Origin: Myxococcota bacterium
Lineage (GTDB): Bacteria; Myxococcota_A; UBA796; UBA9615; JAKLKC01
Assembly: GCA_023150875.1 (NCBI GenBank)
Contig: JAKLKC010000065.1
Coordinates: forward strand, 1-32,588
DNA length: 32,588 bases
Direction of reading: 5' to 3'
The position numbers and the translations under genes are program-made. Position 1 is the first letter of the stretch. Every line of letters starts with the position of its first letter. Below are positions 1-26,161 of the stretch, piece by piece. The notes below the pieces were generated by a model. The model made no database searches and was not told the origin of the DNA. It saw only the letters and a program-made list of their open reading frames with translations.

Positions 1-68
1 GAGCCGGCCCGGGAGGGAGGGGCCAGGACGGCCCCGACCGGACGGGGCGACCCCCATGCGCTTCCGCC
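1..68. repeat. 68-bp direct repeat, copy 1
   Basis: This segment recurs at 165-232 with only two differences, both near position 45. The window begins inside or at the edge of this copy, so the unit may extend further left. Positions 48-60 also form a perfect 13-bp inverted repeat with 92-104, which could fold into a stem with a 31-nt loop. I see no convincing gene in 1-362: open frames there lack a good ribosome binding site and are cut by the repeats. Confidence 0.8.
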
Positions 69-164
69 ACCTTCCCGCCTTCGGCCCCTCTCGCATGGGG
101 GTCGAACGCGAGGGCGGCGCGGCCTGCGGCCGAAAAGCGCGCGGGACGCGCGCGTCAGCCGCCC

Positions 165-232: not shown

Positions 233-362
233 CCTGTCCCAAAGCCCCCTCGTGGTCTCCGTCCGCCGGCCCGCCGCCGGTCGCCGGCCCGTGGTACCTT
301 GTGAAGGTCTCGGGAGGGGGACCCGGTCCTGCTCCTCCCGGGCCCGGCATGACGGAGGTCCC

Positions 363-1019
363 ATGCCCCACGCGCTCCTGCCCACCGCCGGCCTGTCCCT
401 GTCGTTGCTCCTGGTCCTGCCCATGTGGACCTGCGGGCCTCACGGGGGGGACGACGACTCCGCCGACGGGGATGACTCCGCCGACGGCGACGACACCAGC
501 GCCGGGCCGGCGGCCCAGTGGTGGCTGACCTGCGGGGATCCGGTGTGTCACGGCTGGTCCCCCTCGGGGAACCCCGACTGCACGACCGAGGTGGCGGGGG
601 ATCCGTGCGGGGACCTGGGGGCGCTGTGCGACCCCCACAACGACTGCAACGCCCAGCTCCTGTGCGCCACCGAGGACCCCACGGCGGGCCCGGGGGGCTG
701 CCCGATCTCCCGCGCCCGGTTCAAGGAAGACGTCTCGTACCTGGACGGCGGCGACGTCGAGGGGCTGCACCAGGAGGTGCTGGGCTTCCGCCTGGCCACC
801 TGGGAGCCCACCCTTCCCGGCTCCGCCCCCGGGCGCCGGCTGGGGATCGTGCTGGACGACGCCCCGGGCAGCCCCGCCGTCGCCGGGGACCACGTGGACC
901 TCTACGCCTACGCCTCCATGACCGTCGCCGCCGTCCAGGCCCAGCAGAGGGAGATCGACGCCCTGCGGGCCGAGGTCGCCGCCCTGCGGGCCGCCTGCGC
1001 CGCCGCTCCGCATCGCTGA
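363..1019 (+). CDS. Exported Cys-rich protein with S74-like intramolecular chaperone domain
   Basis: A 218-aa protein starting at ATG 363, placed 4-8 bases after a GGAGG ribosome binding site. A hydrophobic signal ends at Cys24 (PMWTC), which would be an atypical lipobox, and is followed by an Asp-rich linker (30-44) and a region with nine cysteines (57-113). The C-terminal 100 residues resemble the Peptidase_S74 chaperone domain of phage tail spikes and bacterial surface fibres: S116 and K121 keep the Ser-x4-Lys spacing of the self-cleaving dyad (ISRARFKEDV), followed by LGIVLDDAP, VDLYAYASM and a terminal coiled coil (QREIDALRAEVAALR). Family knowledge says such domains trimerise a protein and may cut themselves off. 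Lipid anchoring and autocleavage here are inferred. The next gene converges with only 9 bases between stops. Confidence 0.75.
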   Translation: MPHALLPTAGLSLSLLLVLPMWTCGPHGGDDDSADGDDSADGDDTSAGPAAQWWLTCGDPVCHGWSPSGNPDCTTEVAGDPCGDLGALCDPHNDCNAQLLCATEDPTAGPGGCPISRARFKEDVSYLDGGDVEGLHQEVLGFRLATWEPTLPGSAPGRRLGIVLDDAPGSPAVAGDHVDLYAYASMTVAAVQAQQREIDALRAEVAALRAACAAAPHR

Positions 1020-3056: not shown

Positions 3057-4769
3057 ATGTCCCCCAGGTCCTTCCTCGCCCCGCTGCTGGCCGCGGGCCT
3101 CCTCGCCGGCTGCACCGGCTCCGACGAGGCCGACGACGATGACGTCCTCACGCCCGACGACGACACCTCCCTGCCCGACGACGACACCCACCTCCCCGAC
3201 GACGACACCACCCCTCCCCCCGATCCCGTCACCTACGTCGAGGACTTCGTGGACACCGCGGACGTCGAGTCCGCCGACGCGCCCTTGGAGACCGGGGACG
3301 GCGGCTGGGCGGTCGCCCCCGCCGACGAGACGCTGGAGGATCCGGGCCTCGGGGAGGGGGGACCTTGGCAGGTGCTGGTGGACGAGGTCATCTCCCCGGG
3401 GGAGTACCACCTGTCGTCCTTCGAGATCGCCCCGGGGGTGAACGTGGAGACCCAGGGGAACGTGGTGCTCCGGGTCGCCGGGCCGTTCACCATGGGGGCG
3501 GGCTCCTCATGGGTGATCGCGGGCTCCCTGACCGTCGCCGCCCGGGGAGCGGTGTCCATCGGGGGCCAGATCGTCTGCTTCGGGACCCTGGAGGTCCACC
3601 AGACGGACGCGGCCGGCTTCGACCTGCCGAGCGAGTCGGTGCTGCTGACGAACCAGCCCAACGACGCCCCCCCCAACCACCTGCGGCTGTGGAGCCGGGG
3701 CCCCATCCACCTGGACGACATGGAGGCCCTGGTCCTCACCGACGGCACGACGGTGGGACCCCGGTCGGGGGACGCGGAGGTGAGGGCCTACGGCGACGTC
3801 ACCCTCACCGCCGGGGCCTACTTCGGCGCCGACTTCACGCAGCCCTTCCAGCCGGGGGACACGCGGATCTGGACCGAGGGGAGCCTGGCGGTGGACGACG
3901 GGAGCTACGTGACGTCCGGGGGCGGCGAGGTCCCCGGCGGGGGCAGGGTGGACGTCCGGGCCCAGGGAGACGTCAGCTTCACCCAGGGCTCGTGGATCAT
4001 CGCCGAGTCCGGGGGAGGGGTGCTCACGCTCCGCTCCGAGGGGAGCGTCCGCCTGGACGACTCCACCTGGGCCTCCAACGGCGGGGGCGGTGTCGTCAAC
4101 GAGGCCCTGGTGGAAGGGGCCTCCGTGGAGATCGTGAATTACGGGTACCTGGTGGGGCTGGAGGGGGACGGTCCGACCCGTTCCTCCCTCACCGTCCGCT
4201 CCGCCGGCTCCGTCCTCGTCTCCACCGAGGGAGGGCTCCACGCCCCGGACGCCGTGTGCGGCGACGCGGGGGACGTCCTCATCGAAGCGGCGGGGGACGT
4301 CGAGGTGTCCGATTCGGGGTACGTGGACGCCGGCCAGGCGGGGACCGGCTGCGAGACGCCGTCCTCCGGCGGGAACATCTTCCTCCGAGCCGGTGGGACG
4401 GTGGACACCGCCACGGGCTGGCTGTCGCCCGGCGTGGGCGACGTCCCCGGCGCCGTGGACGTCTCCGAGGGAGCCCCCGTCGAAGTCGTGCCCGACGCGG
4501 GCCTGCGCTTCCCCTCCGTGGTGACCAGCCGGCCCCTGCCCATGGAGGGGACCACCGGCGAGGTCCTCTCCTTCCAGGTCTACGCCACCGACCCCCCGGG
4601 CGCCCGGGTGGACCTGTGGATCTCCCCGGATGGCACCGAGGACGCATTCGTCCCCGCGGACCAGGCCATCGGCGCCCTCCTCGGGGAGGGCTGGCGCTAC
4701 CGGCTCGTGGTCCACGGTCGCATGTTCGACCCGGCCCGGGCGGATGGCTTCGAGATCGTGTATCAGTGA
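3057..4769 (+). CDS. Lipoprotein with Asp-rich linker and beta-rich repeat domain
   Basis: A 570-aa protein with GGGAG a few bases before ATG 3057. The signal ends in a clean lipobox, LLAGC (Cys19). Residues 22-58 are an acidic linker built of DDDT units. The rest has many short segments of the type GSLTVAARGAVSIGG, VRAQGDVSFTQGSWI and LRSEGSVRLDDSTW, each about 20-30 residues, as in right-handed beta-helix or filamentous surface proteins. A short terminal segment (about 490-570) looks like a separate beta domain. I do not recognise a catalytic site. It is likely a lipid-anchored outer-surface protein; adhesion or polymer binding is only a possibility. It converges with the DUF445 gene, 57 bases away. 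Confidence 0.8.
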   Translation: MSPRSFLAPLLAAGLLAGCTGSDEADDDDVLTPDDDTSLPDDDTHLPDDDTTPPPDPVTYVEDFVDTADVESADAPLETGDGGWAVAPADETLEDPGLGEGGPWQVLVDEVISPGEYHLSSFEIAPGVNVETQGNVVLRVAGPFTMGAGSSWVIAGSLTVAARGAVSIGGQIVCFGTLEVHQTDAAGFDLPSESVLLTNQPNDAPPNHLRLWSRGPIHLDDMEALVLTDGTTVGPRSGDAEVRAYGDVTLTAGAYFGADFTQPFQPGDTRIWTEGSLAVDDGSYVTSGGGEVPGGGRVDVRAQGDVSFTQGSWIIAESGGGVLTLRSEGSVRLDDSTWASNGGGGVVNEALVEGASVEIVNYGYLVGLEGDGPTRSSLTVRSAGSVLVSTEGGLHAPDAVCGDAGDVLIEAAGDVEVSDSGYVDAGQAGTGCETPSSGGNIFLRAGGTVDTATGWLSPGVGDVPGAVDVSEGAPVEVVPDAGLRFPSVVTSRPLPMEGTTGEVLSFQVYATDPPGARVDLWISPDGTEDAFVPADQAIGALLGEGWRYRLVVHGRMFDPARADGFEIVYQ

Positions 4770-4836: not shown

Positions 4837-6164
4837 AGGAGCGCCGAGACCGCCGCGATGACTCCGCCCACCGCCGCGCCCACCAGGGTCCCGTTGATCC
4901 GGATGTATTGCAGGTGGTCCCCGATCTTCTCCTCGATGTTCTTCGACATCTTCCCGAGGTCCCAGGAGCCCATGGTGGAGACGATCAGGCCGCGGATCTC
5001 GGGGTACATGGCTCCGACGGCGCCGGGGACGGCTTCGGCGAGCACGGCGTCCACCCGGGCGCAGAACCCGGCGTTCCCCCGCAGATCGCCCGCGATCCTC
5101 CAGAGCGCGTCCGCCAGCCTCCGGCGCAGGGATGATTCCGGGTCCCGCGCATGTCTCAGGATCCGCCCGCGGACCTGTCCCGAGACCTCCTTGGCGTAGT
5201 CCCGCAACCCGGCGCTCAGGACCTCCCGCTTCAGCTTCTCGCCGGCGCGGCGCCACTCGGGATCGTCTCTGAGCTTCGCCACCACCTCGTCCATCAGCCG
5301 GCGGGCGCGGCCGTGCCAGAGGTGGAGGGGATCCCCGGCCATGGCCCGGAGATCGGCCACCAGCTTCTCCCTCTCGGTGTCGGCGAAGTACGCCACCACG
5401 TAGCCCTTGAGGCTCGCCAGGATCCCCGAGTCCTTGCGCCGGATCGCCCCCTCCATCCACTTCTGGAACTGTGGGTCCTCCAGGACGTCGGCGAGGATCC
5501 GCGCCCCCTCGGCGGTGACTCGGCCACCCAGGTCCTCCTCGGTCAGCCCCTGGAGCACCCTCCCCGCGAGGGGGGCGAGGTCCAAGGAGTCCAGGACCGG
5601 GTCGACCTGCCGGAGGATCGCCTCCTGGAGGTCCGCGTCCCCGAGGAGCTCCAGCTCGCCCGCGATCATCCCCGCGGCGAGGTCCACCACCCGCCGGGCG
5701 TTGTCCCGCACCCCAAGCCAGTCGAGGGCGTGCCGGGTCAGGGCCCGCCCGGCCAGGTAGCCGCGGAGGTTGTCCTCCTCCACGAAGGGCTCCAGGAACG
5801 ACGAGAGTTCCGACGCGATCCGTTCCCTGGATCGGGGGATGATGGCGGTGTGGGGGATGGGAAGCCCGAGGGGGTGCCGGAAGAGGGCCGTGACCGCGAA
5901 CCAGTCCGCGAGCCCTCCCGCCAGTCCCGCCTCCGCCATGGTCCCGACGTGGCGGAGCCAGGGCCACCGGGCCTGTCCCAGGTGAGCGGCGACGAACAGC
6001 ACGGCCATGAGGAGGAGCAGCAGGTGGGCCCAGAGTCGCTCGCGGCCCCGGCGCTCCCCGCCCGCCCCGGTGCCCCCCGGCCGCCTCACCCCTCCGGCGG
6101 TGGGGCGGCCCTCTCCGCGGTCCAGATGGGCGCTGGTCTTCTCCGGCGTCATGGTCGCGGTCAC
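4827..6164 (-). CDS. DUF445 family membrane protein
   Basis: A 445-aa protein that starts at GTG 6164, overlapping the stop of the upstream gene by four bases (GTGA), with GGAGG seven bases before it; an ATG at 6152 is a weaker alternative. A basic N-terminus is followed by a membrane segment (WAHLLLLLMAVLFVAAHLG, about residues 45-63), then AGLAGGLADWFAVTALFRHP, a signature of DUF445, then a long helical, charged middle and a final hydrophobic segment ending in GGVIAAVSALLPG. Both ends are therefore anchored with a large helical body between. The family (YjiN/YheB type) has no agreed function. Coupling to the exported GH94-like gene suggests both are made together in the cell envelope. Confidence 0.88.
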   Translation of the reverse strand: MTATMTPEKTSAHLDRGEGRPTAGGVRRPGGTGAGGERRGRERLWAHLLLLLMAVLFVAAHLGQARWPWLRHVGTMAEAGLAGGLADWFAVTALFRHPLGLPIPHTAIIPRSRERIASELSSFLEPFVEEDNLRGYLAGRALTRHALDWLGVRDNARRVVDLAAGMIAGELELLGDADLQEAILRQVDPVLDSLDLAPLAGRVLQGLTEEDLGGRVTAEGARILADVLEDPQFQKWMEGAIRRKDSGILASLKGYVVAYFADTEREKLVADLRAMAGDPLHLWHGRARRLMDEVVAKLRDDPEWRRAGEKLKREVLSAGLRDYAKEVSGQVRGRILRHARDPESSLRRRLADALWRIAGDLRGNAGFCARVDAVLAEAVPGAVGAMYPEIRGLIVSTMGSWDLGKMSKNIEEKIGDHLQYIRINGTLVGAAVGGVIAAVSALLPG

Positions 6165-8839
6165 GGCACCGCCTCCACCACGAACTCCACTTCCTCCCCG
6201 GCCTCCAGGTCGATGGGGAGCCGCACCGCCGCTGCCCCATCGGCCACATCGACGGGGACGTCCCCCACCCGGGCGGTCCACACCCCCTCGCCCAGCGCGA
6301 CCTCCAGGGTCGTGGTGGCGGCGGCGGCGGCGCGGTAGGTGCCCGCGATCCGTCCCGGTCCCACGTCCAGGGAGATCAGGGGCGTCTCCAGGGTGAACCT
6401 CCCCCCGGGGACCCGCGGGGCGATCTCCAGGCCTCCCCCCTCGGCCGGCGAAAGGCCGGCGACCCGGAGCAGCGCCAGCAGGGGCATGGCGTGGGCGTTG
6501 GAGTTCTGGACCGGCCAATCGGTCATGGGGGTCGCCTCGCTGGACCAGGTGCCCCCGTCCACCCCGATCCCGTCCGGGCCGGACCAGATCCCGTACCACT
6601 GCCCGGGGTTGTGGTCGGCGTAGGCCGCCAGCGTGTGCCGCGCCAGGGAACCCCAGGCCCGGTCCGGGTCCCGGGCGGAGTAGCCCCAGGTCAGCAGACC
6701 GGTGACGGCGTGCCAGACCTGACCCCCGGCGGTCAGGGGCGCCCCCACGGGGGAGGGGGCGTCCAGCTCCTGGTACACCGTGTCCGCCAGGGTCGCCCGC
6801 CGCTCCTCGCCGCCGATCCCCGCGATGAGGGCCCAGACCTGCGCCTCCAGGTCCAGGTGGCCGTCGCCGTAGGGCTCGTCCTCGGCGAACCAGGCCCGCC
6901 GGTACCAGCTCCCCGTCCACTCCTCCGCCGCCTCCGCCGCCATGCGCGCCCCGATCTCCCGGGCCTCCGCCGCCAGGTCCGGATCCATGTCGTCGAACAG
7001 CGCCGCGGCCCGGGGGAGGACCCACGCGGCCATTTGTGTGTTGGGGACCGATTCCCCCTCGGCGACCGCCGTCGCCCGGCTGGCAGCCTCGAAGGTGATC
7101 CCGTCGCTCCAGTCCCCCGTCCCCAGGCGCACCAGGCCGTGGTGACCGGTCCCCACCCCGTCCACCAGGTGTCGGAACGCGGCCCGGGCGTGGTCCCGCA
7201 CCGGCGCCGGGGGCACGGTCCCTTCGGGCCAGTAGGGCTGCTCCTCCTCCAGGAACGCCCGGTCGCCGGTGGCCGCCACGTACTCCGCCAGGGCCCACAG
7301 GAAGAAGAGGTCCAGGTCCGACGGCGCGGAGTGGATCAGCGCGTCCTCGGCCATCCCGAACCCCTGCACCGCGTAGCTGATCTGGAAGGTGTCGGCGTGG
7401 GTGGCCCGCATGACGGTGCGGAGCGCCTCCCGGGCCAGATCGGGGCGCATGTAGGCGGCGGGGACGGCGAACAGGCAGAAGTCCCGCGCCGCCCCGTCCA
7501 GCCCGTGGAGGAAGAGGTAGGCCGATCCCTGGGCCAGGGTGTGGGCGGAGAAGCCGTCGTCCATGACGGCGGCCTGGAGGAACTGGGCGGCGTGCCACGC
7601 CTTCTCCCGGGGCAGCGTCCCAGCCCCGTCGGCCTCGAAGCGGGGGAGGACCCTCCCCCACTCCGCCGCGGTGGCCGCGCCGGGATCCACCTCGGGGTCC
7701 CGGAAGGCGTCCAGGGAGTCCAGGGTGAAGCCCTCGGGGAGGCTGCCGTAGGCGTACCGCAGCCGGGCGCACCCTCCCGCGGGCACCAACAGGTCCACCT
7801 CGTCGGCGAGGAGCGCCGGCTGTCCCGAAGCGGAGACGGGCCCCAGGGGCGGCCCCGGCGGCGTCCCGGCGGAGGCGGCGGCGGGGGAAGCGACGTCCCC
7901 GTCCCCGAGGAAGGCCGAGCGGTCGGTGTGCATCGCCAGCGGCGCGGCGGCGGGGTCCGGGAGGAGGCGGGCGAGGAAGATCGGCGCGGGGAAGTAGTCC
8001 CGGGACCCGGAGTCCTCGGCCCCGGCGGGTGCGTCCCCGCCGGTGTAGGTGTGGTGGACCAGCCCCACGCCCCGGGCGTCGTCCAGCTTCACCTCCACTT
8101 GGAACAGGTCGTTCACCGCCTCCCGCTCCGCGTCCAACATCGCCGGGATCCCCGGGTCCAGGGTCCCCGACCGCACGAGCTGGAGCTCGACGGGGTGGCG
8201 GTTCACGTCCCAGGTCTCGTAGTGCCGGAGCGCCCGGGGCACCGTCCCCTCGTTGGCGATCTCCACGTCGTCCACGACGAAGGGCAGGTCCCCGTAGGGC
8301 GCCGTCACCCGGTGGGTGATCCGCCAGCCGTCCCACCGGGTCTCGTAGGCGGCGTACCCGATCCCGTGCAGCCGCTCCGCCTCGGCGCCCGGGGGACGCA
8401 GGGCGTAGGCGCTGGCCCACGCCTCCCCCTCCTCCGCCACCACGCTGTATCCCCCACCGGCGCGGCCGTCCTCCAGGTCCACGCGGTTGAGAAAGGCCGG
8501 GCCCCTCTCCCGAGTGAAGACCTGCACGAAGCCCTGATTGGACGCGGTGGCGATCAGGCGGTCGTTGCCGAACGCGAACCAGTGGTCCCGGCGCGTCGCC
8601 CCGTCGGAGGTCACCCACTCGGCCCGGGGATCCTGGTCCTGGTCCAGGGTGTACCGGTAGGCGGGCAGGCCCGAGGCGTCCTCGACCCACGCGCCGAAGT
8701 CCCCGGCGCCGGAGGGATCGTCTTCGCCGGCGAAGAGATCGGGCTGACAGGCGGCGGGCGGGGCGGGCTCGCCCGGATCGGCGCACCCGGCGAGCATGGC
8801 GAGCAGCAGCCCAGGGATGTGAGACCCGAGTCGGAGCAT
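6161..8839 (-). CDS. Exported GH94/GH36-clan-like glycoside enzyme, lipoprotein
   Basis: An 892-aa protein from ATG 8839, behind a strong GGAGGAGG site. Residues 1-19 (LLLAMLAGC) form a lipoprotein signal with Cys19. Layout follows the cellobiose/chitobiose phosphorylase (GH94) type: an N-terminal beta-sandwich (about 60-370), a helical linker, an (alpha/alpha)6 barrel (about 400-760) and a C-terminal beta domain. The motif TGDWSDGITF (574-583) corresponds to the family's ADWNDCLN, whose first Asp is the general acid, here D576. Family members are usually cytoplasmic phosphorylases of beta-glucosides; a lipid-anchored form is unusual and might act as a periplasmic or surface hydrolase or phosphorylase. 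Substrate unknown. Its stop overlaps the DUF445 start. Confidence 0.75.
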   Translation of the reverse strand: MLRLGSHIPGLLLAMLAGCADPGEPAPPAACQPDLFAGEDDPSGAGDFGAWVEDASGLPAYRYTLDQDQDPRAEWVTSDGATRRDHWFAFGNDRLIATASNQGFVQVFTRERGPAFLNRVDLEDGRAGGGYSVVAEEGEAWASAYALRPPGAEAERLHGIGYAAYETRWDGWRITHRVTAPYGDLPFVVDDVEIANEGTVPRALRHYETWDVNRHPVELQLVRSGTLDPGIPAMLDAEREAVNDLFQVEVKLDDARGVGLVHHTYTGGDAPAGAEDSGSRDYFPAPIFLARLLPDPAAAPLAMHTDRSAFLGDGDVASPAAASAGTPPGPPLGPVSASGQPALLADEVDLLVPAGGCARLRYAYGSLPEGFTLDSLDAFRDPEVDPGAATAAEWGRVLPRFEADGAGTLPREKAWHAAQFLQAAVMDDGFSAHTLAQGSAYLFLHGLDGAARDFCLFAVPAAYMRPDLAREALRTVMRATHADTFQISYAVQGFGMAEDALIHSAPSDLDLFFLWALAEYVAATGDRAFLEEEQPYWPEGTVPPAPVRDHARAAFRHLVDGVGTGHHGLVRLGTGDWSDGITFEAASRATAVAEGESVPNTQMAAWVLPRAAALFDDMDPDLAAEAREIGARMAAEAAEEWTGSWYRRAWFAEDEPYGDGHLDLEAQVWALIAGIGGEERRATLADTVYQELDAPSPVGAPLTAGGQVWHAVTGLLTWGYSARDPDRAWGSLARHTLAAYADHNPGQWYGIWSGPDGIGVDGGTWSSEATPMTDWPVQNSNAHAMPLLALLRVAGLSPAEGGGLEIAPRVPGGRFTLETPLISLDVGPGRIAGTYRAAAAATTTLEVALGEGVWTARVGDVPVDVADGAAAVRLPIDLEAGEEVEFVVEAVP

Positions 8840-12679: not shown

Positions 12680-13588
12680 ATGGCGAGTCGCGTGAATTGG
12701 ATCCTGTGCCTGGCGGCGGGCCTGCCCCTCCTCGCGGGATGCCCGGGCGCCGAGGTGGCGGACGACGACGGGTCGAGTACGGACGACGACGCCACCGCGG
12801 GTGACGATGACTCGACCCCGGCAGACGACGACACCACCCCGGGTGACGATGACTCGACCCCTGGCGACGACGACACCGCCCCGGACGACGACACCGCCCC
12901 GGACGACGACACCTCGCCGGACGACGACACCGCCCCGGACGACGACACCGCCCCCGACGACGACACCGCCCCGGACGACGACACCGCGCCCGACGACGAC
13001 ACCGCGCCCGACGACGACACGACACCCGATCCGGGCGGCCACGCTGCCGAAGGCCACACCTTCCACCTGGAGCTGGGCGACGGCACCATCACCGAGCCGA
13101 TGGGACTCGGGGCCCTGTCGACGTACTTCGACCTCGTCCACCCCCTGGTCCAGGTCTGGGACATCACGGACGTGGACCTGGACATCATGGTCGGTGACGG
13201 CGATCGGGTGGGGCCGACCTTCGTCCAGGACCTCTCGGGGTCGACTTCCGAGCGCAACGACGTGCCCTTCACGGATCCCCACTTCGACATGAGCGGCGCG
13301 TTCGACATCTCGCTGGAGATGGGCCCGGATACTCTCATCCTCCATTCCGCCACCTTCGGCGGCGACCTCGACCCCACCGGAGAGGCACTGGAGTCCGTCG
13401 TGCTGAGGGCGCAGCTCGACGTCCGGGGCCTGGGCTTCGACGCGGACGAAACATGCTGGTTCCTCGCGACCCTCGGATCTCCGTGTTTCTCGTGCCCCAG
13501 CGACGGCGACGCCTACTGCGTCTCGATCGAGGTCGCGGACATCCCCGGGACCTGGGTGCCGGGCCTGGACCTGGTCTCAGTGCCTTGA
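12680..13588 (+). CDS. Lipoprotein with long DDDT repeat linker
   Basis: A 302-aa protein from ATG 12680 behind GGAGGAG. The signal ends in the lipobox LLAGC, Cys21. Residues 27-114 consist of about 14 repeats of DDDT/S plus two or three residues (TP, TAP). The C-terminal 185 residues contain a Cys cluster near the end (ETCWF, SPCFSCPS, AYCVS) and hydrophobic beta-like segments (FHLELGDGTITEP, LDIMVGDGDRVGP). I recognise no domain. A lipid-anchored surface protein held off the membrane by the acidic spacer is the simplest reading. The neighbour downstream is another exported Asp-rich protein. Confidence 0.8.
   Translation: MASRVNWILCLAAGLPLLAGCPGAEVADDDGSSTDDDATAGDDDSTPADDDTTPGDDDSTPGDDDTAPDDDTAPDDDTSPDDDTAPDDDTAPDDDTAPDDDTAPDDDTAPDDDTTPDPGGHAAEGHTFHLELGDGTITEPMGLGALSTYFDLVHPLVQVWDITDVDLDIMVGDGDRVGPTFVQDLSGSTSERNDVPFTDPHFDMSGAFDISLEMGPDTLILHSATFGGDLDPTGEALESVVLRAQLDVRGLGFDADETCWFLATLGSPCFSCPSDGDAYCVSIEVADIPGTWVPGLDLVSVP
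12782..13025 (+). repeat. 18-bp in-gene tandem repeat
   Basis: Tandem units close to GACGACGACACCGCCCCG code for the DDDTAP linker of the lipoprotein. Later units are almost identical at the DNA level and earlier ones more diverged (GACGATGACTCGACCCC), so the array has probably grown recently by slippage at its 3' side. Length should vary between strains. Confidence 0.85.
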
Positions 13589-13794: not shown

Positions 13795-13822
13795 TTGACG
13801 CGGGCTCGCGCGTGTGAATAAT
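13795..13822 (+). promoter_or_regulatory. Sigma-70-type promoter of the MopE-like gene
   Basis: TTGACG (13795-13800) and AATAAT (13817-13822), each five of six matches to consensus, are separated by 16 bases. The expected start of transcription near 13829 lies after an upstream in-frame ATG at 13821 and 20-25 bases before ATG 13851, which supports the latter as the start codon. Confidence 0.6.
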
Positions 13823-13850
13823 GCAACGAGGCCTCCATGCAAGGTGCCCC

Positions 13851-14825
13851 ATGCGCTTCCCCACCTCCCTGCTGATCTCCTCCCTGACTCTGCTCGCGTG
13901 CGGCGCCCCGGGCTTCGCCCATGCCGCCTGCACCGTGACCCTGCTCAGGCCGGCGAACGACGCCACCGTCACCGCACCGCCGACCTTCCGGTGGTCCGCG
14001 ACGGAGGACTGCCAGCGGTACCGCGTGCAGGTGAACCCGACCATGGAGTTCGGGCCTGCGGCGACGGGTCTCGGCTGGAAGCCCACCACGAGGACCACGA
14101 TGACACAGGCCACCTACGACGCGCTCACCGCGGAGGGCACGGCGACCTGGTACTGGCGCGTGCAGGGGCGAGACGCGGCCGGGACGACGACGAACACCGC
14201 CCCGCGGGCGATCACGCTGACCACCCAGGACGCCGACGGGGACGGGTACGTCGACGAGGGATACGGCGGGACCGACTGCGACGACGCGGACGGGGCCATC
14301 CACCCGGGCGCGGCCGAGGTGTGCAACGGGTTCGACGACGACTGCGACGGCGTCACCGACAACGGAGGCGGGACCGCCTGGTATGACGACTCCGACGGCG
14401 ATGGGCACGGGCACCCGTCGGTGATGGTCCTGGCCTGTGATGCACCCGCGGGCTTCGTCGCGGTCGGAGATGACTGCGATGACTCCTCGGCGTCGATCCA
14501 CCCGGGCGCGACCGAGGCTTCCTGCTCCGACGGCGTCGATCAGGACTGCGACGGGAGCGATGGAGAGTGCGAGGGGTACCGGTGGAACTACGTGGGCGTC
14601 GGCGACTGCTCCGGGCACGACATCACCCAGACGGCTCCGTCCCCGGAGCCCGACGTGGGGCAGTGTTCGGAGTCCCAGCTCGGACTCGCCGCGGTGTGCT
14701 GGGACAACGCCGCCTACTACAACGTGAACCTCCCGACCGGGGGCTGCACGTACAAGACGCTCAGCCCCGAAGCCTGCGTCGGTGGGGCCAACCCGGGCTT
14801 CATGTACGTCTGCGTCGCGAACTGA
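13851..14825 (+). CDS. Exported protein with MopE-type Asp/Cys metal-binding repeats
   Basis: A 324-aa protein from ATG 13851, chosen by the promoter position. The signal could end at AHA-A (after residue 25) or be a lipobox at LLAC (Cys17). Residues 27-125 form a beta domain resembling Ig/fibronectin-like modules (LRPANDATVTAPPTFRWSA). Two copies of the putative metal-binding motif follow: DADGDGYVDE, TDCDDADGAIHPGAAEVCNG, DDDCDG (127-167) and SDGDGHG, DDCDDSSASIHPGATEASC, DQDCDG (181-235). This motif (PF11617) is common in myxobacterial and other surface proteins and likely binds calcium or copper. The last 85 residues are Cys-rich. It is not an enzyme as far as can be seen. Confidence 0.88.
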   Translation: MRFPTSLLISSLTLLACGAPGFAHAACTVTLLRPANDATVTAPPTFRWSATEDCQRYRVQVNPTMEFGPAATGLGWKPTTRTTMTQATYDALTAEGTATWYWRVQGRDAAGTTTNTAPRAITLTTQDADGDGYVDEGYGGTDCDDADGAIHPGAAEVCNGFDDDCDGVTDNGGGTAWYDDSDGDGHGHPSVMVLACDAPAGFVAVGDDCDDSSASIHPGATEASCSDGVDQDCDGSDGECEGYRWNYVGVGDCSGHDITQTAPSPEPDVGQCSESQLGLAAVCWDNAAYYNVNLPTGGCTYKTLSPEACVGGANPGFMYVCVAN

Positions 14826-15078: not shown

Positions 15079-16638
15079 TCAAGGGGCAGCCAGCGCCGCG
15101 TCCAGCACCCCTCGCTCCGCCTGGGCGGGCGCACCCACCCCGAGGAGCCGCCCCAGGGTCGGCGCGACCTGCCGGGGATCGGCGAGGCCCCCGGGAGCGC
15201 CGGACCGGATCCCCGCGCCGAACGCCAGCAGGGGGACGTCGGTGTCCGCCGCCCAGGGGGCGCCGTGCTGCGTCCCCTGGTGGGGGATCTCCTCGTCGAA
15301 GAAGGAGGCTCCCTCGGAGGGCACGACGTAGACGTCGGGGGAGCGGCCCGGTGAGGCGCAGGCCCCCACCAGCGCGTCCAGGGTGGATTCCGGAGCCACC
15401 GGGCCGCCCGGGGGCGGGAGCACCAGGGCGGCGTGGACGTTTGCGGTGGCCGCCGCGACCGCCCGGACCGCGCGGACCGCCTCGGAGCGCCTCTCGGCGG
15501 GGATCTGCGACGGGAGCCAGAGCCCCGGCACCGCGAAGTCCACGTCGCCGTCGATGCCCGCCTCCCGGAGGGCGCGTGACGCCCGGAGGGCGAGGTCGGC
15601 GCCGTCGACCCAGGCGTGCAGGGCCGGGGGAGCGCCGTGGTCCGACGTCAGCACGACGGCGTAGCCGCTCCGCCCGAGGCGGCCGTCCAGGGCCTCGAAG
15701 AGGCGGCCCAGGTCGGCGTCGAGGCGCAGCAGCGCGTCGATGGACTCCCAGCTCTCCGGCGTGAAGGCGTGGCCGGCCAGGTCGACGTGGGAGTAGCTCA
15801 GGGTCAGCAGGTCGGCGGATCCCGTCTGGCCCAGGCGCAACCGCTCCACGGCCTCCACCGCCAGGTCGGTCAGGAGGCTCCCCGCGGCCGGGGTCGCCAT
15901 GAAGGCCCGGGCCGAAAGGTCCCGGGTCGCGGGGTGGGGGAACGTCCGCCCGAGCCCCTGCCAGTCGGCCTCGTGGGCCGCGTCGTCCGGGCCCCGGGTG
16001 CGCGCGTACAGCTCGGGCATGAGGGCGGTCCAAGGCCGGGCCCGGTGGTCCGCCAGGGCGCCCTCCCCCTTCCAACCGCCCGCCCCGACGAGGGTTCCGG
16101 TCCGGGCATCGAACCACACCGCCACGTCCGGCGCCCGCCCACCCAGGAGGACCGCGCCCCGGTCCTTCAGGGACAGGGAGGCGACCCGTCCGCCCCGGGC
16201 GCGGACCCGGTCCGCCAGGGCCTCCCCCCGCAGCCGGCCCGGCTCACCCGCGGAGATCCGGACGCTGCCCTCGTACCAGGCGTTGCCGACGATGCCGTGG
16301 ACGGCGGGGGACGCGCCGGTGGCCAGCGTCGCGTGGCCGGGGCCCGTCAGCGTGCAGGCGTGGGCGTAGCGGGCGGTCGTCCGGAACGCCCCGTCCCCGG
16401 CGAGGCGGGCGAGCCCGCCCGCCAGGTGGGGTCGGGCGGCCTCCAGGAGGCGGACCGGGAGCTGGTCCACCACCACCAGCACGGCGAGGCGAGGACCGGG
16501 CGCCGACCCCGGCCCCGGCGGAGGGGCCGAGGAGGCCACCGCGGCCGCCGCGGCGAGCGCCCCCGCGAGGGCCAGGGCGGCGAGGAGTGGCCGCGCCCAC
16601 CCGGGTGGCGGACCGGAGGGACGGCGTGCGCCACCCAT
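15079..16638 (-). CDS. PafA-like alkaline phosphatase / type I phosphodiesterase
   Basis: A 519-aa exported enzyme from ATG 16638, with GGAGG six bases upstream. A basic start and an Ala/Leu-rich stretch (about 17-36) form a signal peptide. The alkaline phosphatase superfamily landmarks are in order: VVVDQLP (metal Asp58), TLTGPGHATL with the likely nucleophile T98, SPAVHGIVGNAWYE as in PafA-type enzymes, SYSHVDLAGH and TSDHGAPP for the second metal site. It probably hydrolyses phosphomonoesters or diesters in the periplasm. It is the last gene of a four-gene operon; its first 395 bases overlap the open frame of the LTD gene. Confidence 0.87.
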   Translation of the reverse strand: MGGARRPSGPPPGWARPLLAALALAGALAAAAAVASSAPPPGPGSAPGPRLAVLVVVDQLPVRLLEAARPHLAGGLARLAGDGAFRTTARYAHACTLTGPGHATLATGASPAVHGIVGNAWYEGSVRISAGEPGRLRGEALADRVRARGGRVASLSLKDRGAVLLGGRAPDVAVWFDARTGTLVGAGGWKGEGALADHRARPWTALMPELYARTRGPDDAAHEADWQGLGRTFPHPATRDLSARAFMATPAAGSLLTDLAVEAVERLRLGQTGSADLLTLSYSHVDLAGHAFTPESWESIDALLRLDADLGRLFEALDGRLGRSGYAVVLTSDHGAPPALHAWVDGADLALRASRALREAGIDGDVDFAVPGLWLPSQIPAERRSEAVRAVRAVAAATANVHAALVLPPPGGPVAPESTLDALVGACASPGRSPDVYVVPSEGASFFDEEIPHQGTQHGAPWAADTDVPLLAFGAGIRSGAPGGLADPRQVAPTLGRLLGVGAPAQAERGVLDAALAAP

Positions 16639-17254
16639 TGGGGCCTCCGGGGGTCGGCGTCGGATCGGACTGCCACTCCCCGGTCCCGTCGGGGAGCCGG
16701 GCGAGGGCGACGTCGGTGTCCTGGGCGCCGAACTCGACGGAGTCCGCCACGGCGCCGTCGGGCGTCAGCAGCAGTACGCTCTCGCCGTCCGCGGAGAGCT
16801 TGAATCCCGCGTGCAGCGGTCCCTGCTTCGTCTCTTCGTCGCACCACACCACCAGGTAGCCGCCCGGCGGAACCGCCGTGCCCTCGGGGAAGGTGAAGCC
16901 CGCGGGGCCCTCGGGATCGTCCGCCAGGCCCCAGCCCGAGAGGTCGAAGGGCTCGACGCCGCCGTGGAACAGCTCCACCCAGTCGTCGAACTCCCCGCCC
17001 TCGTCGGCGGCGACGGAGTCGTTGTCCGCCATCAGCTCGTTGAGCACCGGCGCCCCCGGAGCCGCCGCGCTGTCGTCGTCCGCGGCGGTGTCGTCGTCCC
17101 CGGGGGTGGTGTCGTCGTCCGCGGGGGTGGTGTCGTCGTCCGCGGCCGTGGTGTCGTCGTCCCCGGGCGCCGCGCCGCTGCAACCGGCGAGGGCGGCGGC
17201 GACGGCGGCGGCGGCGAAGGCGGGGCGTGGGAACAGGGCGAACACGGGGCGCAT
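16244..17254 (-). CDS. LTD (lamin-tail domain) lipoprotein with run-on C-terminus
   Basis: A 336-aa frame from ATG 17254, with AAGGAG in front. The signal ends at the lipobox ALAGC (Cys25), then DDDT-type linkers (29-61), then a lamin-tail domain (about 66-205): PVLNELMADNDSV, DWVELFHGG, PFDLSGWGLADD, GGYLVVWCDEE, SVEFGAQD. The domain ends at TPTPGGPNGWRTP near base 16630. After this the frame stays open for about 125 Arg/Gly/Pro-rich residues that lie inside the phosphatase gene and look non-functional, so the original stop is probably lost. Bacterial LTDs accompany secreted nucleases, phytases and phosphatases, which fits the neighbour. Only 10 bases separate it from the barrel gene. Confidence 0.82.
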   Translation of the reverse strand: MRPVFALFPRPAFAAAAVAAALAGCSGAAPGDDDTTAADDDTTPADDDTTPGDDDTAADDDSAAAPGAPVLNELMADNDSVAADEGGEFDDWVELFHGGVEPFDLSGWGLADDPEGPAGFTFPEGTAVPPGGYLVVWCDEETKQGPLHAGFKLSADGESVLLLTPDGAVADSVEFGAQDTDVALARLPDGTGEWQSDPTPTPGGPNGWRTPSLRSATRVGAATPRRPGPRGGARRGGRGGLLGPSAGAGVGARSSPRRAGGGGPAPGPPPGGRPTPPGGRARPPRRGRGVPDDRPLRPRLHADGPRPRDAGHRRVPRRPRHRRQRLVRGQRPDLRG

Positions 17255-17264
17255 GGGCTCTCCT

Positions 17265-18415
17265 TCAGGGGAGGGAGGGGGGTGCCGCCCCCCGGGGGCG
17301 GCTCGGATCGGACGGCGTGAAGGGGAAGGCGGCGGACAGGTCGACGCCCACGAGCAGGAAGGCGCGGTGCCAGGTCGACAGGGCCTCCGCCCCGGCGATC
17401 TCCGTCGCGTCGGGCCCGGCCCCGCCGCCCTCGTACCCGCCGGCGACGAGGACCGGGGGGGCGCCCCGGAAGGGGGACCACTCGACCCCCGCGCCCCCCC
17501 GGAAGGTGAACGCGACGGCCTCGGGGTTGCCCGGCTCCTCCGAGACGACGTCCAGGCGGCCCCAGGCGACCAGGGGGCCGACGGGGCGGAGGACCGCCCA
17601 GGCCGAGCCCCCCACCGGCGTCCGCGCCGCGTCGCCGCCCACCCCCCACGCGCCCAGGGCCTCCACGCCTGCCCGGACGGGGCCGGCCCGCACGGCGATC
17701 CGCGCGCCCGCACGGTGGTCCCGGGCGCTGTCCAGGCCGCGGGACCCGTCCCGGGCGAACAGCGAGACCTCCAGCGCGCCGGGATCTCCCCCCCGGGACC
17801 GAGGGGCCGGACGACCAGGAGCCCCGCGAGGTCCTTCCCGTCGTTCCGCTCCCGGGAGCGGGCGCCCTCGCCGGAGGTCAGGGAGGCGGTCAGGGTCAGC
17901 AGGCGCCCGGGGGACGCGAAGGTGAGCACCATCCCCAGGTCCGAGCGGTCCAGCCAGCCCCGCTCCTCGGCGAGCGAAGGGGCCACCGCCCGCAGCGAGA
18001 ACGCGGCCTCGGAGCCGGCGGCGAAGGGATCGTCGATCAGCCCGGCGACGAAGCTGAGGCCGGCGGGGGCGAGGGTGGCCCGCGCCTCGGCCACCTGGAA
18101 CGCGGGCACGATGGACTCGCCGTCGACGCCGATGTACCCGGCCTCGCCGCCCGAGCGCACCGCCACCAGGGCGACCCGCCCCGACACCGCGCCGCCGACG
18201 TCGATCCCCCCTTCGACGCGGGCCTGGGGCAGGTCGAAGAGGCGCGACACCCCCTCCTCGGGGAACGCCACCCCCAGCCGCCCGGCCAGCGCCAGCCGGA
18301 GCCCGAGGCACGCCGGATCCGCCGCCGACGGCAGGGGCGATCCGGCGGGCGGGGGTCCGGCCGGGGCTCCGAAGCCCAGCAGGCCGCAAGCGAGCAGCAG
18401 CGCAGGCGGGCTCAC
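17265..18415 (-). CDS. Predicted outer-membrane beta-barrel protein, interrupted by a one-base frameshift
   Basis: The gene starts at GTG 18415, overlapping the DUF2252 stop (GTGA), and ends at 17265. Upstream of about 17795 the good frame gives a signal sequence (PPALLLACGLLGFGAPA) and alternating polar/hydrophobic strands (YIGVDGESIVPAFQVAEA, LTLTASLTSGEGA); downstream the good frame is one base off (ALEVSLFARDGSRG to the stop). The switch lies at a run of seven C (17788-17794, G on the coding strand): one more G would restore a 383-aa protein through GPGGGDPGALEV. It resembles porin-like proteins of 14-18 strands without being assignable. A sequencing slip, a real mutation or phase variation are all possible. 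Confidence 0.7.
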
Positions 18416-19902
18416 GGCACGTCGTCGGGGAGGGTGTCGGCCCCGAGGAGCTCGCCGTGAATGGCGAGGAGCCCCGGAAGGAGCGCGAAGTCGCCCAGGG
18501 TGAGGGCCAGGTCCTCCTCGGCGTCCCGGGCCCGCTCCTCGGCGAAGGCTTCCGTCCGTCCCCCGATGTCCCGGTATATGGCCCCGGCGGCGTCCCCTCC
18601 CTCGGCCGTCCCCCCTCGCCCGTGGGCCGCGGCGAGGGCCCGCCCCAGCGCGCCCCCCAGGTCCCGGGCGGCGTCCCCTCCGCCCTCCCCGGCGAGGGCC
18701 GCCTCGGCGATGTCGCCGTGGTCCAGCTCCTGGAACCACGAGGACCCGCTCACGACCTTGAACGCCTGGCCCCCGTCCGAGAGCCCGGCGAGGCGGGCGT
18801 CGGCGTCCGGCCTCGACCACAGCCGCTGGGACGCCCCCACGATCCGGGCGGCGTTGTCGGGGAAGAGGCCCGGCACGAGGGAGATCAGGCCGGGGGGCGG
18901 GGGCGGATCCACCACCTCGCGGAAGGTCGCCAGGTCGTCGTCGTCGGGCCCGGGATCCCCGCGGTCGAACAGGACCAGGAACCGGACCGCCGGCAGGGAC
19001 GCGACGCCCTTGCCGTAGAGCCGCACGCCGTCCAGGAAGCGCAGGCCGGGCTCCCCCGCGGGGTGCCAGGAGGCCACCAGGCGTTGGAGCTGGTCCCGCT
19101 CGGGGGCGGTGGGCTCGAGGGCGCCGCGCCCGTCCGCCGTCAGGGCGTCGTCGCGCCGCAGCCGCCGGACATCGCCTTCGAGGACGGTGGCGTCCTCCCA
19201 CTCCTCCCGCCCGAGCCCCTCCTCCCACGCCTCGTCCAGGAGCGCCTGGACGAGGGCCCCCCCTTCCGGCGCTCCGACCTGGGGCGTCCACGCCTCGTCC
19301 TCCCCGGTCCCGCCGGTGGCGAGGAAGGAGATCCGGTCCGCGTAGCCCTCCGCCAGGGACCGGATGGCCGCGCTCCGGCACGCCGCGTCGCACCCGGGGG
19401 CGCCAGCGAGGGCCATCGCCAGCCCGAGGGCCGCGCGCCGGACGTCCAGGAGGTAGGGCCCGAACGCGGCGCCGTCGAGGTCGACCCACTCGAGGGTCAG
19501 GGAGGCGGTGTCCGCCGCCAGGGCCCCGCCGCCCGGCGCGCAGGTCCCGAAGTTCTCGGGGTGGGGATCGCCCACCAGCAGGACGGCGCAGGCCTCGGGC
19601 TCGGCGAGGAACCCGGTCCGCCCCCGGCCGCCCACCCGGGCGACGTCCTCCAGGAACAGCCCCACCGTCCCCCGCATGAAGTCGTAGGGATCCGCGGCCA
19701 TCCGCGCGTACTTCTCGGCCACCCGCCGGGGATCCCGGCCGAGCCACCGCTGGTTGTCCCGCACCAGGAAGTCGCGCAGCACGGCGCCCCGGTCCTCGCC
19801 CGCCCCCGCGCCCGAACACGACGGCAGCCCCCCGGCGGCGAGGGCCATGGCGACCGAGAGGACGGCGGGGGTCGCGGGGGATCCGAGGGTACGCCAGCGC
19901 AT
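18412..19902 (-). CDS. DUF2252 family protein with lipoprotein signal
   Basis: A 496-aa protein from ATG 19902; GGAGG lies about 11 bases upstream, rather far. DUF2252 signatures are plain: KYARMAADPYDFMRG (64-78), GDPHPENFGT (111-120), LEWVDLDGAAFGPYLLDVRR, LYGKGVASLP and FKVVSGSSWF, in a kinase-like (aminoglycoside phosphotransferase-like) fold. Unusually, residues 1-29 form an export signal ending at LPSC (Cys29), so it should act outside the cytoplasm, where ATP is not available. Its function is unknown. It is the first gene of the operon with the barrel, LTD lipoprotein and phosphatase, and its stop overlaps the barrel start. Confidence 0.85.
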   Translation of the reverse strand: MRWRTLGSPATPAVLSVAMALAAGGLPSCSGAGAGEDRGAVLRDFLVRDNQRWLGRDPRRVAEKYARMAADPYDFMRGTVGLFLEDVARVGGRGRTGFLAEPEACAVLLVGDPHPENFGTCAPGGGALAADTASLTLEWVDLDGAAFGPYLLDVRRAALGLAMALAGAPGCDAACRSAAIRSLAEGYADRISFLATGGTGEDEAWTPQVGAPEGGALVQALLDEAWEEGLGREEWEDATVLEGDVRRLRRDDALTADGRGALEPTAPERDQLQRLVASWHPAGEPGLRFLDGVRLYGKGVASLPAVRFLVLFDRGDPGPDDDDLATFREVVDPPPPPGLISLVPGLFPDNAARIVGASQRLWSRPDADARLAGLSDGGQAFKVVSGSSWFQELDHGDIAEAALAGEGGGDAARDLGGALGRALAAAHGRGGTAEGGDAAGAIYRDIGGRTEAFAEERARDAEEDLALTLGDFALLPGLLAIHGELLGADTLPDDVP

Positions 19903-20112
19903 GGGACGGCGATCCTCCCCCGCCGACGGGGCGACGCCGTGCCGCCCGCGCGAACACTCGGTGACGGAGCGGGCGCGGGACGGGGCCTCACCCGCGGCGG
20001 AGCCCGTCCCCCGGGGGGCCCTGGCTCGGCTCCCCGGGCGGCGTGCCGCGACTTCTTGGGTGGGGGCCGTCGCCGAAACGGGTGCCGGCGAGCGCCCGGT
20101 CGTCGCGCTCCC

Positions 20113-22896
20113 CTACTTCCTCTCCCAGCCCGCCGCGAACCCCGCGAGGCTTCCGGCCTCGGTGATGGCGTCGTCCGGAACCAGGAGGTAGCGCCACGGC
20201 TTCCCGTCCGTCGTCCGGGTGTGCTCGGTGGCGTGCCGGCACCAGGCGACGGCCGCCCGGGCCTTCTGCTGGACGAGGTCGTCGTCCATCTCGTTCCGCG
20301 CCTTCACCTCGCAAAGGAAGCGGGCCTCCCGGATCTCCACCACGAAGTCCGGCTCGTATCGCTCGCCGCCCTCGAGGTGGATGGGAAGGTTCCCCGCGGC
20401 CGGCTTGAACCACTTCAGGACCTCGTCGTCGTTCTCGAGCACCACCGCGAAGCGCCGCTCCGGGTCCGAGTCGAACCGTTGGAGGGGGAAGAGGCACTTC
20501 CGGAACCCCTCGAACAGCATCCGCCGGATGTTCTTCTTGTCCTCCACGGGATCCCGGAACGGGCGGGCCGACTCGCCGCTCGCCACCGACCACGTGGCGG
20601 CCTTCAACGTGCTGAAACCCCGAGTGACCTTCGCCTCGTAGCCGGTCGCGTACTCCCGGCGGTGGCGTGCCATCTGCGCGTGGACCAGGTCGCCGAGGCG
20701 CTTCTGGTAGTAGAGCAGGACGTTGCGCACGTCCTCCTCGGACGCGAGGTAGCTCCGCAGGTGGCCCACGAGCCGCTCCGCGAGCTTGTAGAGGAGCCCG
20801 GCGTTCGCGTCGTACTCCACGTCGTCGAATTCGATCAGGGCGCGGACGACGTAGTCCTCCAGGCGGTCGTCGGCCGGCCCATCGCCGACCACCGAGAGCC
20901 TCTCCTGGTGGTGGCTCTGGAGGTGCTGGATGAGGATGTCCTCCCGCACCGGCTGGAGGTGGACGCCCGAGGTGTCGAGGTCGAAGTCTTCGAACTCGAT
21001 GGTGACCTCCCCCGTCGGCACCACGACCACCGTGGGGACGTCGATGGAGAGCGCCTCGTAGGCCGCGGTGGTCCGGGCCACGATCTCCTCGACGCTCGGC
21101 GCATCCTCGGCCCCCGGCGACTCTCCCTGGGCGGGCAGCGAAGCCTTCACCTCCTCGACGATCCGCGCCTGTACCTCCGGCGTGTTGAGGTCCGCCGCGG
21201 ACCGCAGCCCCTCGTGGCCGGGGATGGCCTGAGCGACGGCCCGGGCGATGGCCTGGGCCGCCGGGGTCGAGAAGGGGGACAGGCGGGCAGGGAGCGCGGC
21301 CGCCCCCGGGTCGTGCCGCGGCGCCACCCCCGTCCCGCCCGCCGCCGGCCCCGACAAGCCGGGGATCTGCACCGGCGCCGGGTGGGGGAGGCCGGCGAGC
21401 ACGGTCTCGAACACGGGGGGGACGTGGGTCGGCCGCTCGGGCTCCCCAGGGCCATCCGGGTCCAACTCGATGAGCTGGATGCGCCGGATGATCGAGTCTC
21501 CGCGCCTGGCCTCGTCCACGATCTCCTGGAACTTGTCGTGGGCGACGATGGTCAGGCGGTCCACCGCCGGCACCCCGGTCCGCCGCCCGTAGGGCAGCCG
21601 GAGCCCCCGCCCGATGGACTGCTCGATGAGGGTCCGGGCGTTCGCCGCCCGCAGGGGGACGATGGTGTAGAGGTTGGTGACGTCCCACCCCTCCTTCAGC
21701 ATGTTGACGTGGATCACGATTTCCGTCGCCTCGTCGGGGCTCTCCACGGCGAGGAGGCTCTTGACGGTCTCCTCCTTCTCGTCGCCGGAGAGGGCCGAGT
21801 GGACCTCGATCGTCTTTCCGGCGTAGCGCCCCCCGAAGAAGGTCTCGGACTTGAACCGCGCGACGAGCTGCCCCGCGTGCTCGGTGTCCCGGGCGATCAC
21901 CAGCATGAACGGCTTGACCGCCCTCCCCCCGCGCTGGGCCGCGTAGATCTGGAGATCGGTCTTCACCTGCTCGTGCAGGCGCACCCCGTCCTCCAGCTTG
22001 ATCCGCTCCACCTGCTCCTCCCCCAGCTTCCGGACGTCGAAGTCCCGGCGGGTGGCCACCGCGGGCTCCTTCACGAAGCCGTCCCGGATGGCCTCCGCCA
22101 GGGGGTAGCTGTAGGCGACGTTCTTGAACGCCACCGGACCCCTGGGGGACTCGGTGAACGGCGTCGCCGTCAGCTCCAGGCCCAGGATCGGCTTCAGCTC
22201 GTTGATGGCCCTCGTGCCCGCGTCGGCCCGGTAGCGATGGGACTCGTCCATGAGCAGAACCAGGTCCGGCAGGCGGGCCAGGTACTCGAAGTAGCTCTCG
22301 CCGATGTACTCCGCCAGGCGCTTGATCCTGGGCGGCTGGTTCCCCCGCTGCGAGGCGCGGACCTCGGTGTTGATCTTCGAGATGTTGAAGACGTTGACGT
22401 GGACGGCGTCCTCGCCCCCGGGTTGGAAGAACCCGAGCTGCCCGCGGCGCTGGTCGTCCCGGACGCCGATCCCGCTCTCGTAGTTCTCGCCGGTGATGAC
22501 GACGGGGGGCGCGGTGACGAACTCGGACAGTCCGTTGAAGACGTACTTCGGGGAGCCCGGCGTGAAGTCGGCGATCAGCTTGTTGTAGATGGTGAGGTTC
22601 GGGGCCAGCACGAAGAAGTGCCGGCTCCGGCCGGTCAGGTAGAGGTAGGCGACGAACGCCCCCATCAGCCGCGTCTTGCCGACGCCGGTGGCCAGGGCGA
22701 AGCAGAGGGACGGGAACTCCCGCTCGAAGTCGGTGACGGTGGGGTACTCGGCCGCCACGGCTTCCAGCGCCCGGGGCAGGTCCACGTCCTTCGACGGCGC
22801 CGCGACGTCGAGCACCCGGGCGAGGATCTCGAGAGACGTACGCTGGGGGGGCCGCAGGCTCAGCCGACCGGCGATCCCGCTGACGTGGCGGTTCAC
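20113..22896 (-). CDS. res: Type III-like restriction subunit (helicase-nuclease)
   Basis: A 927-aa protein starting at GTG 22896, coupled to the methyltransferase stop by a GTGA overlap. The SF2 helicase core shows ATGVGKT (Walker A, 69-75), LMDESHRYR (DExH box, 217-220), LTATPF (242-247) and IGRGLRLPYG (motif VI). The end has a PD-(D/E)XK nuclease site: YEPDFVVEI (D850) and CEVKAR (E863, K865). All motifs are present, so it looks functional. Res needs Mod for DNA recognition, cuts after ATP-driven sliding and is expected to restrict phage DNA lacking the modification. A 210-bp gap with no visible gene separates it from the DUF2252 operon. Confidence 0.9.
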   Translation of the reverse strand: MNRHVSGIAGRLSLRPPQRTSLEILARVLDVAAPSKDVDLPRALEAVAAEYPTVTDFEREFPSLCFALATGVGKTRLMGAFVAYLYLTGRSRHFFVLAPNLTIYNKLIADFTPGSPKYVFNGLSEFVTAPPVVITGENYESGIGVRDDQRRGQLGFFQPGGEDAVHVNVFNISKINTEVRASQRGNQPPRIKRLAEYIGESYFEYLARLPDLVLLMDESHRYRADAGTRAINELKPILGLELTATPFTESPRGPVAFKNVAYSYPLAEAIRDGFVKEPAVATRRDFDVRKLGEEQVERIKLEDGVRLHEQVKTDLQIYAAQRGGRAVKPFMLVIARDTEHAGQLVARFKSETFFGGRYAGKTIEVHSALSGDEKEETVKSLLAVESPDEATEIVIHVNMLKEGWDVTNLYTIVPLRAANARTLIEQSIGRGLRLPYGRRTGVPAVDRLTIVAHDKFQEIVDEARRGDSIIRRIQLIELDPDGPGEPERPTHVPPVFETVLAGLPHPAPVQIPGLSGPAAGGTGVAPRHDPGAAALPARLSPFSTPAAQAIARAVAQAIPGHEGLRSAADLNTPEVQARIVEEVKASLPAQGESPGAEDAPSVEEIVARTTAAYEALSIDVPTVVVVPTGEVTIEFEDFDLDTSGVHLQPVREDILIQHLQSHHQERLSVVGDGPADDRLEDYVVRALIEFDDVEYDANAGLLYKLAERLVGHLRSYLASEEDVRNVLLYYQKRLGDLVHAQMARHRREYATGYEAKVTRGFSTLKAATWSVASGESARPFRDPVEDKKNIRRMLFEGFRKCLFPLQRFDSDPERRFAVVLENDDEVLKWFKPAAGNLPIHLEGGERYEPDFVVEIREARFLCEVKARNEMDDDLVQQKARAAVAWCRHATEHTRTTDGKPWRYLLVPDDAITEAGSLAGFAAGWERK

Positions 22897-24581: not shown

Positions 24582-24934
24582 CTGCCGCTCCTGAGTCCCG
24601 CCGGAGGATCCGTTGCGCCGCGCCACGCGCGCGGTGGGTGTGGGCCGTCGCCATCGGCCCCTCGATGCAGGCGGGTGGGCCCGCCCCGCTCCATCCGCTC
24701 CCACCCCCCGCCGCCCCTCGGCCCCCCACGGATCGTCGGCCGCCCGGGGGCTCCCCGGGGGAGAGCCACCGGGCGGACCCCGCCCGAGGAGGCGGGAGCA
24801 TACCTCGGCGGCGGGGGGACTGTCGCCGCCCGCCGCCCGAATAGAACCCCATCGACGCGGGAGTCCGGCGTCGCCGTCCCCGTCGACTCGGACAAGGCAC
24901 GCCGCCCGCCTGCCGTCGGGAACGCACACCGCGT
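24582..24934. other. Non-coding gap with GC-rich hairpins
   Basis: A 353-bp gap between the PD-(D/E)XK gene and mod, both on the minus strand. It has an inverted repeat CCGCCCGG (24740-24747) with CCGGGCGG (24769-24776), and a tight hairpin CCCGCC (24779-24784) with GGCGGG (24791-24796). These could end transcription of the upstream gene, though no T-tract follows. I see no gene and no clear promoter for mod. Confidence 0.45.
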
Positions 24935-26020: not shown

Positions 26021-26161
26021 CGGGACGGGACCCTACTCCAGTCTCGGGTTCCAGGGCAAGGGCGGGATGCGGCCCCACGCGGTCCCCCGTCGTTGTCGGG
26101 AACGGGGATGCCATTCACCCAACCCCCGGGGGGAACTCCGCCTCCTTCCGACCCCGGGCCC

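Follow-up and report, generated by a model that had tools for sequence, protein, structure and literature searches.

A divergent S74/ICA domain, predicted to cut itself free, on a small cysteine-rich exported protein of Myxococcota

The 32,588-nucleotide stretch of Myxococcota DNA analysed here (the window) carries near its start a gene for a 218-residue precursor whose C-terminal ~100 residues, as profile comparison and structure prediction suggest, most likely form a divergent S74/ICA domain whose passenger is cysteine-rich and not a beta-fibre. We consider it probable that the precursor is exported and that a predicted cut by this domain leaves an eight-cysteine module on the envelope. Domain homology, predicted fold, invariance of the Ser-Lys dyad and pairing with the eight-cysteine passenger were computed directly; from these we infer the trimer, the cut and the anchor. 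A sequence-only reading of this DNA had proposed that a small exported protein carries an S74-like chaperone domain with its Ser-Lys dyad, and family-level profile alignment, Pfam scans of family members and the predicted fold bear this out. It had overlooked that eight of the cysteines make up a single conserved module, which ends three residues ahead of the serine, and that the architecture is that of a whole family.

The open reading frame at 363-1019 on the forward strand is a genuine gene, recognized by its reading frame and its homologues. It is preceded by a probable ribosome binding site (GGAGG, 354-358, forward strand, read from sequence) and faced by a class-V aminotransferase gene on the opposite strand; promoter and terminator scans found none. 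The protein, all of whose parts are likewise encoded on the forward strand, begins with a hydrophobic signal peptide (363-434) that closes with Cys24 in a lipobox-like, non-canonical MWTC motif. An Asp-rich linker (residues 25-52; 435-518) and the eight-cysteine passenger module (residues 53-115; 519-707) come next. The S74/ICA core (residues 116-179; 708-899) opens with the predicted nucleophile Ser116 (708-710) and contains the predicted general base Lys121 (723-725) and the invariant Gly161, and the C-terminal helix and coiled coil occupy residues 180-214 (900-1004). The predicted cut falls between Ile115 and Ser116, at the boundary 5' of 708-710. The length, the Asp-rich linker, the positions of S116 and K121 and their Ser-x4-Lys spacing agree with the sequence-only reading, and K121 is the sole lysine of the protein. 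The nine cysteines that it reported are in fact ten: one at the lipobox position (Cys24), eight that lie between residues 57 and 113 and belong to the module, and Cys212 in the tail.

The signal and linker segment matches unrelated proteins of the same genome, so the Asp-rich linker looks like a genome-wide, local lipoprotein style. Within the window, other lipoprotein-like frames with a D-rich linker behind a lipobox-like cysteine lie at 3057-4769, at 12680-13588 and within 16247-19957 (reverse strand), and one of them carries a lamin-tail domain (PF00932). The residue before the lipobox cysteine is Gly, Ala or Ser in most relatives, and lipid anchoring is plausible across the family; for the window protein itself, with MWTC and no Lys or Arg ahead of Cys24, it is weakly predicted. 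Ahead of the gene, window positions 1-76 and 165-240 form a direct repeat of 76 nt whose copies are 93% identical; a query with positions 1-220 found one further match in the genome, covering query 87-214 at 78% identity, so the repeat is not high-copy. Elsewhere the window encodes a protein with MopE-type putative metal-binding motifs (13821-14825, forward strand; PF11617), apparent type III restriction-modification genes (20113-26114, reverse strand; res subunit PF04851 and DNA methylase PF01555), an AbiEii-type nucleotidyltransferase toxin domain (29168-30337, forward strand; PF08843) and a protein combining a helix-turn-helix (PF01381) with an IrrE-like peptidase domain (PF06114; 31113-32360, reverse strand).

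The family is widespread in Myxococcota and apparently undescribed. A protein search of 142 relatives returned many full-module homologues, at roughly 40-52% identity over full-module matches, and a profile match was found in 93 of 379 sampled genomes of the phylum, some of these matches covering the S74 part only. Contigs with a match from named genomes belong mostly to Myxococcota or deltaproteobacterial MAGs, along with two Polyangium isolates. One member with Cys module and dyad lies at 5900-6510 of an AT-rich contig labelled Euryarchaeota (L152). The gene is under purifying selection and both halves are constrained: in one close homologue pair the whole module has a dN/dS of ~0.08, its Cys part 0.06 and its S74 part 0.10. 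No conserved gene neighbours were found around the family loci, and none that would suggest a partner. The largest neighbour cluster after the family itself consists of opposite-strand frames, which are probably shadow ORFs of the gene, and the remaining clusters cover 11 of 81 loci or fewer.

Alignment of 30 members read in frame, later enlarged to 85 unique full-length modules, showed which residues are fixed. Ser116, Lys121, Gly161 and Tyr181 are invariant in 85/85, and all eight module cysteines are kept throughout, save for one sequence in which Cys73 is replaced by Ala; the first 30 members have exactly eight cysteines ahead of the serine. At position 149 the window protein carries Pro, against Tyr in 84 of the 85, which counts against the mechanism favoured below. 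Tight pairing of the eight-cysteine module with the S74 domain is equally apparent at the level of loci. In 135 relative genomes, matches to the eight-cysteine module share their loci with full-module matches, apart from the fragments described below, and the motif Cys-x-x-Ser-x4-Lys is present in 88 of 91 unique ORFs carrying the eight-cysteine module.

Of the other three, one is cut short by its contig end and two, L162 and L164, have their stop precisely where the Ser codon would be. L161 and L163, both truncated at a contig end, were disregarded as carrying no information. In L162 no S74 sequence follows the stop, and in L164 a decayed, frameshifted S74 remnant does. L164 may also be a gene in decay, or reflect an error in the contig. 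The two look like separate events, because their nearest relatives belong to different subclades. Both genes read as if they encoded directly the C-terminus predicted to remain after cleavage.

Upstream of the S74 domain there is no beta-helical or fibrous passenger, only the 63-residue Cys-rich module preceded by linker and signal. Modelled alone, this module is predicted confidently (AF2 pLDDT 91.6) and contains hardly any strand, and a Foldseek search of it against the PDB gave no match at E up to 10. The relatives of family f13 carry Kazal-type inhibitor domains (PF00050, best E 3e-21) in front of it, a hint of a surface protease-inhibitor or binding role.

In the mechanism that we favour, the precursor would be exported, and probably lipid-anchored in most relatives, and its C-terminal coiled coil would bring three chains together. 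The eight-cysteine module would fold and oxidise, and the Ser-Lys dyad would then cut between Ile115 and Ser116. The chaperone would be shed, while the linker and the eight-cysteine module would stay on the envelope as the mature protein.

A descendant of S74 that no longer cuts, and serves only as a trimerisation or folding module still joined to the eight-cysteine module, would account for part of these data, and we regard it as unlikely. The Asp of the SDxxxK motif is missing at column 117 in all 85 modules (Arg117 in the window protein), the small passenger lacks a beta-helix and with it the usual trigger of folding, and, as MYRF shows, such a domain need not pack on its stalk in order to trimerise (PMC8326128). 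On the other hand, Ser and Lys are invariant although the four residues between them vary, and the reading frames of two relatives terminate right where the Ser codon would stand. Furthermore, a cysteine at P3 is kept with different passengers. Among further Myxococcota loci, it stands three residues before the serine in 20 of the 23 S74 proteins with a Cys-rich passenger (at least six cysteines within the 60 residues ahead of Ser) and in 0 of 24 fibre-type ones (two or fewer), and the passengers that have it differ in their Cys pattern. The Fisher p of 1.8e-10 for this contrast overstates the case, since the grouping was made after the table had been seen and the sequences are related. The pairing does not depend on the divergent subfamily alone, since several of the Cys-rich proteins carry an SDxxxK S74 domain that clears the Pfam cut-off by a wide margin.

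Continuing from self-cleavage as the preferred reading, the restriction of the P3 cysteine to Cys-rich proteins suggests that cleavage may serve as a folding check on the last cysteine of the passenger. A bolder and rather doubtful extension is that S74/ICA domains of Myxococcota have been taken over to mature small Cys-rich surface proteins, with the cut gated by oxidation. The last passenger cysteine, at P3 (Cys-Pro-x|Ser), would then allow the dyad to act only once it sits in a disulfide.

Membership of S74/ICA emerges from the family as a whole. A search with PF13884, by which the sequence-only reading expected the domain to be recognized, fails with the single protein, and the likeness is significant only via the family. 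The window protein alone gave no match in the Pfam scan even at E 10. Searches with it against Pfam, NCBIfam and PHROGs returned nothing or weak tail-fibre matches mostly over the coiled coil, and a profile search against PDB sequences gave weak unrelated matches only. Among the 30 family members, 21 match PF13884 (E up to 10; best E 6.5e-6), and three relatives found in the genome search pass its curated cut-off. Aligned by hhalign with seven canonical Myxococcota S74 C-termini, the family profile matches with a probability of 98.7 and an E of 1.6e-16, Ser falling on Ser and Lys on Lys; with the S74 part alone, E is 2.2e-16 and the alignment begins at the dyad and spans the core.

The predicted structure agrees. 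The AF2 model of a single chain has a pLDDT of 91.4, and its four best VIA-align matches are all solved S74 chaperones: MYRF 7dc3 (Z 7.0, 86 residues, 1.8 A), K1F 3gw6 (6.2), T5 4uw8 (5.7) and GA-1 3gud (5.0). As these Z values are all below 8, the match rests more on which structures rank first than on Z. The S74 chaperone core that the sequence-only reading looked for is present in the single-chain model. Similarly, a search of a viral fold library with the model returned S74 tail fibres. The structural matches cover model residues 73/74 onwards; module residue 74 pairs with MYRF 597, and extending back without gaps puts S116 and K121 on S587 and K592, an extrapolation that is off by one when the same step is taken on K1F. 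Mutation of S587 or K592 of MYRF to Ala abolishes cleavage (PMC8326128). The trailing helix, a single one at module residues 128-162 in the model, acts as a heptad coiled coil, as had been read from the sequence. Its hydrophobic fraction at a/d positions is 0.63 in the best register compared with 0.27 overall, a value somewhat flattered by taking the best of seven registers per sequence, and the register is identical in 72 of 85 members.

An ordinary coiled-coil lipoprotein whose S74 likeness is compositional is therefore already contradicted, and very improbable. The weak PHROGs and single-sequence matches do fall mainly on the coiled coil, but the hhalign alignment starts upstream of it at the dyad, four S74 chaperones head the structural matches from model residues 73/74 onwards, and the PF13884 cut-off is exceeded by three members. 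Taken alone, a Ser followed five residues later by a Lys would say little; the dyad rises above chance because it is invariant in 85/85 and accompanied by the profile and fold matches. With the Ser-x4-Lys dyad, profile-level homology, the core fold and the C-terminal coiled coil all present, the window domain most likely works like S74/ICA. We file it as a divergent S74/ICA relative and not as a PF13884 member, because the SD Asp is missing and the Pfam cut-off is not reached.

Least probable of all, and already unlikely on the searches made, is a prophage tail-fibre remnant that has lost its spike part: canonical S74 domains are abundant in phages (973 phage records match a canonical query), but no phage, viral-contig or plasmid relative of the window protein was found, the rest of the genome gave no PF13884 match, a scan of ten window ORFs revealed no phage structural family, and a single module is conserved across many families of the phylum under purifying selection.

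S74 domains are already known at work in cellular proteins, namely MYRF (PMC3742443, PMC8326128) and the MAT fibres of Bdellovibrio (PMC10769870), and in the open-access literature searched we found no paper that pairs such a domain with a Cys-rich passenger in Myxococcota. The window protein shares with the phage domains of Peptidase_S74 (PF13884; K1F 3GW6, T5 LTF 4UW8, GA-1 gp12 3GUD) the Ser-x4-Lys dyad, the core fold, the invariant Gly, the coiled coil at the end and the C-terminal position directly behind the passenger. Unlike them, it has no SD Asp, no single-sequence Pfam match and no phage context, and its passenger is a ~63-residue eight-cysteine module instead of a triple beta-helix. 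MYRF ICA (7DC3) is its best structural match and likewise belongs to a cellular protein associated with a membrane, and its S587/K592 dyad is essential for cleavage (PMC8326128). However, in MYRF, a transcription factor of eukaryotes, it is the N-terminal part that leaves the membrane, whereas the N-terminal part of the window protein is predicted to stay anchored while the chaperone is shed. The Bdellovibrio MAT fibres resemble it in being cellular bacterial surface proteins with a terminal S74 domain, and Bd3182 cleaves itself unless blocked by S782A; in contrast to the window protein, Bd3182 has an SDxxxK motif and forms a long fibre, trimeric and beta-helical (PMC10769870).

Closest in design are seven short Myxococcota proteins (L165, L166, L168, L220, L224, L225 and L227), exported precursors with a Cys-rich passenger, a P3 cysteine and a C-terminal S74 domain that in several of them exceeds the PF13884 cut-off. 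They differ from the window family in their Cys pattern, SD motif and GPMAQDF-type core, and constitute a second Cys-rich/S74 pairing in Myxococcota; we found no description of such short Cys-rich SD-type proteins in the open-access literature searched. Self-cleavage by S74/ICA has so far been described for phage spikes, MYRF and Bdellovibrio fibres. If the proposed reading is true, pairing with a compact Cys-rich domain shows that S74/ICA can also mature non-fibrous passengers, and the fixed cysteine three residues before the cut offers a specific, testable prediction of what the domain senses before cutting.
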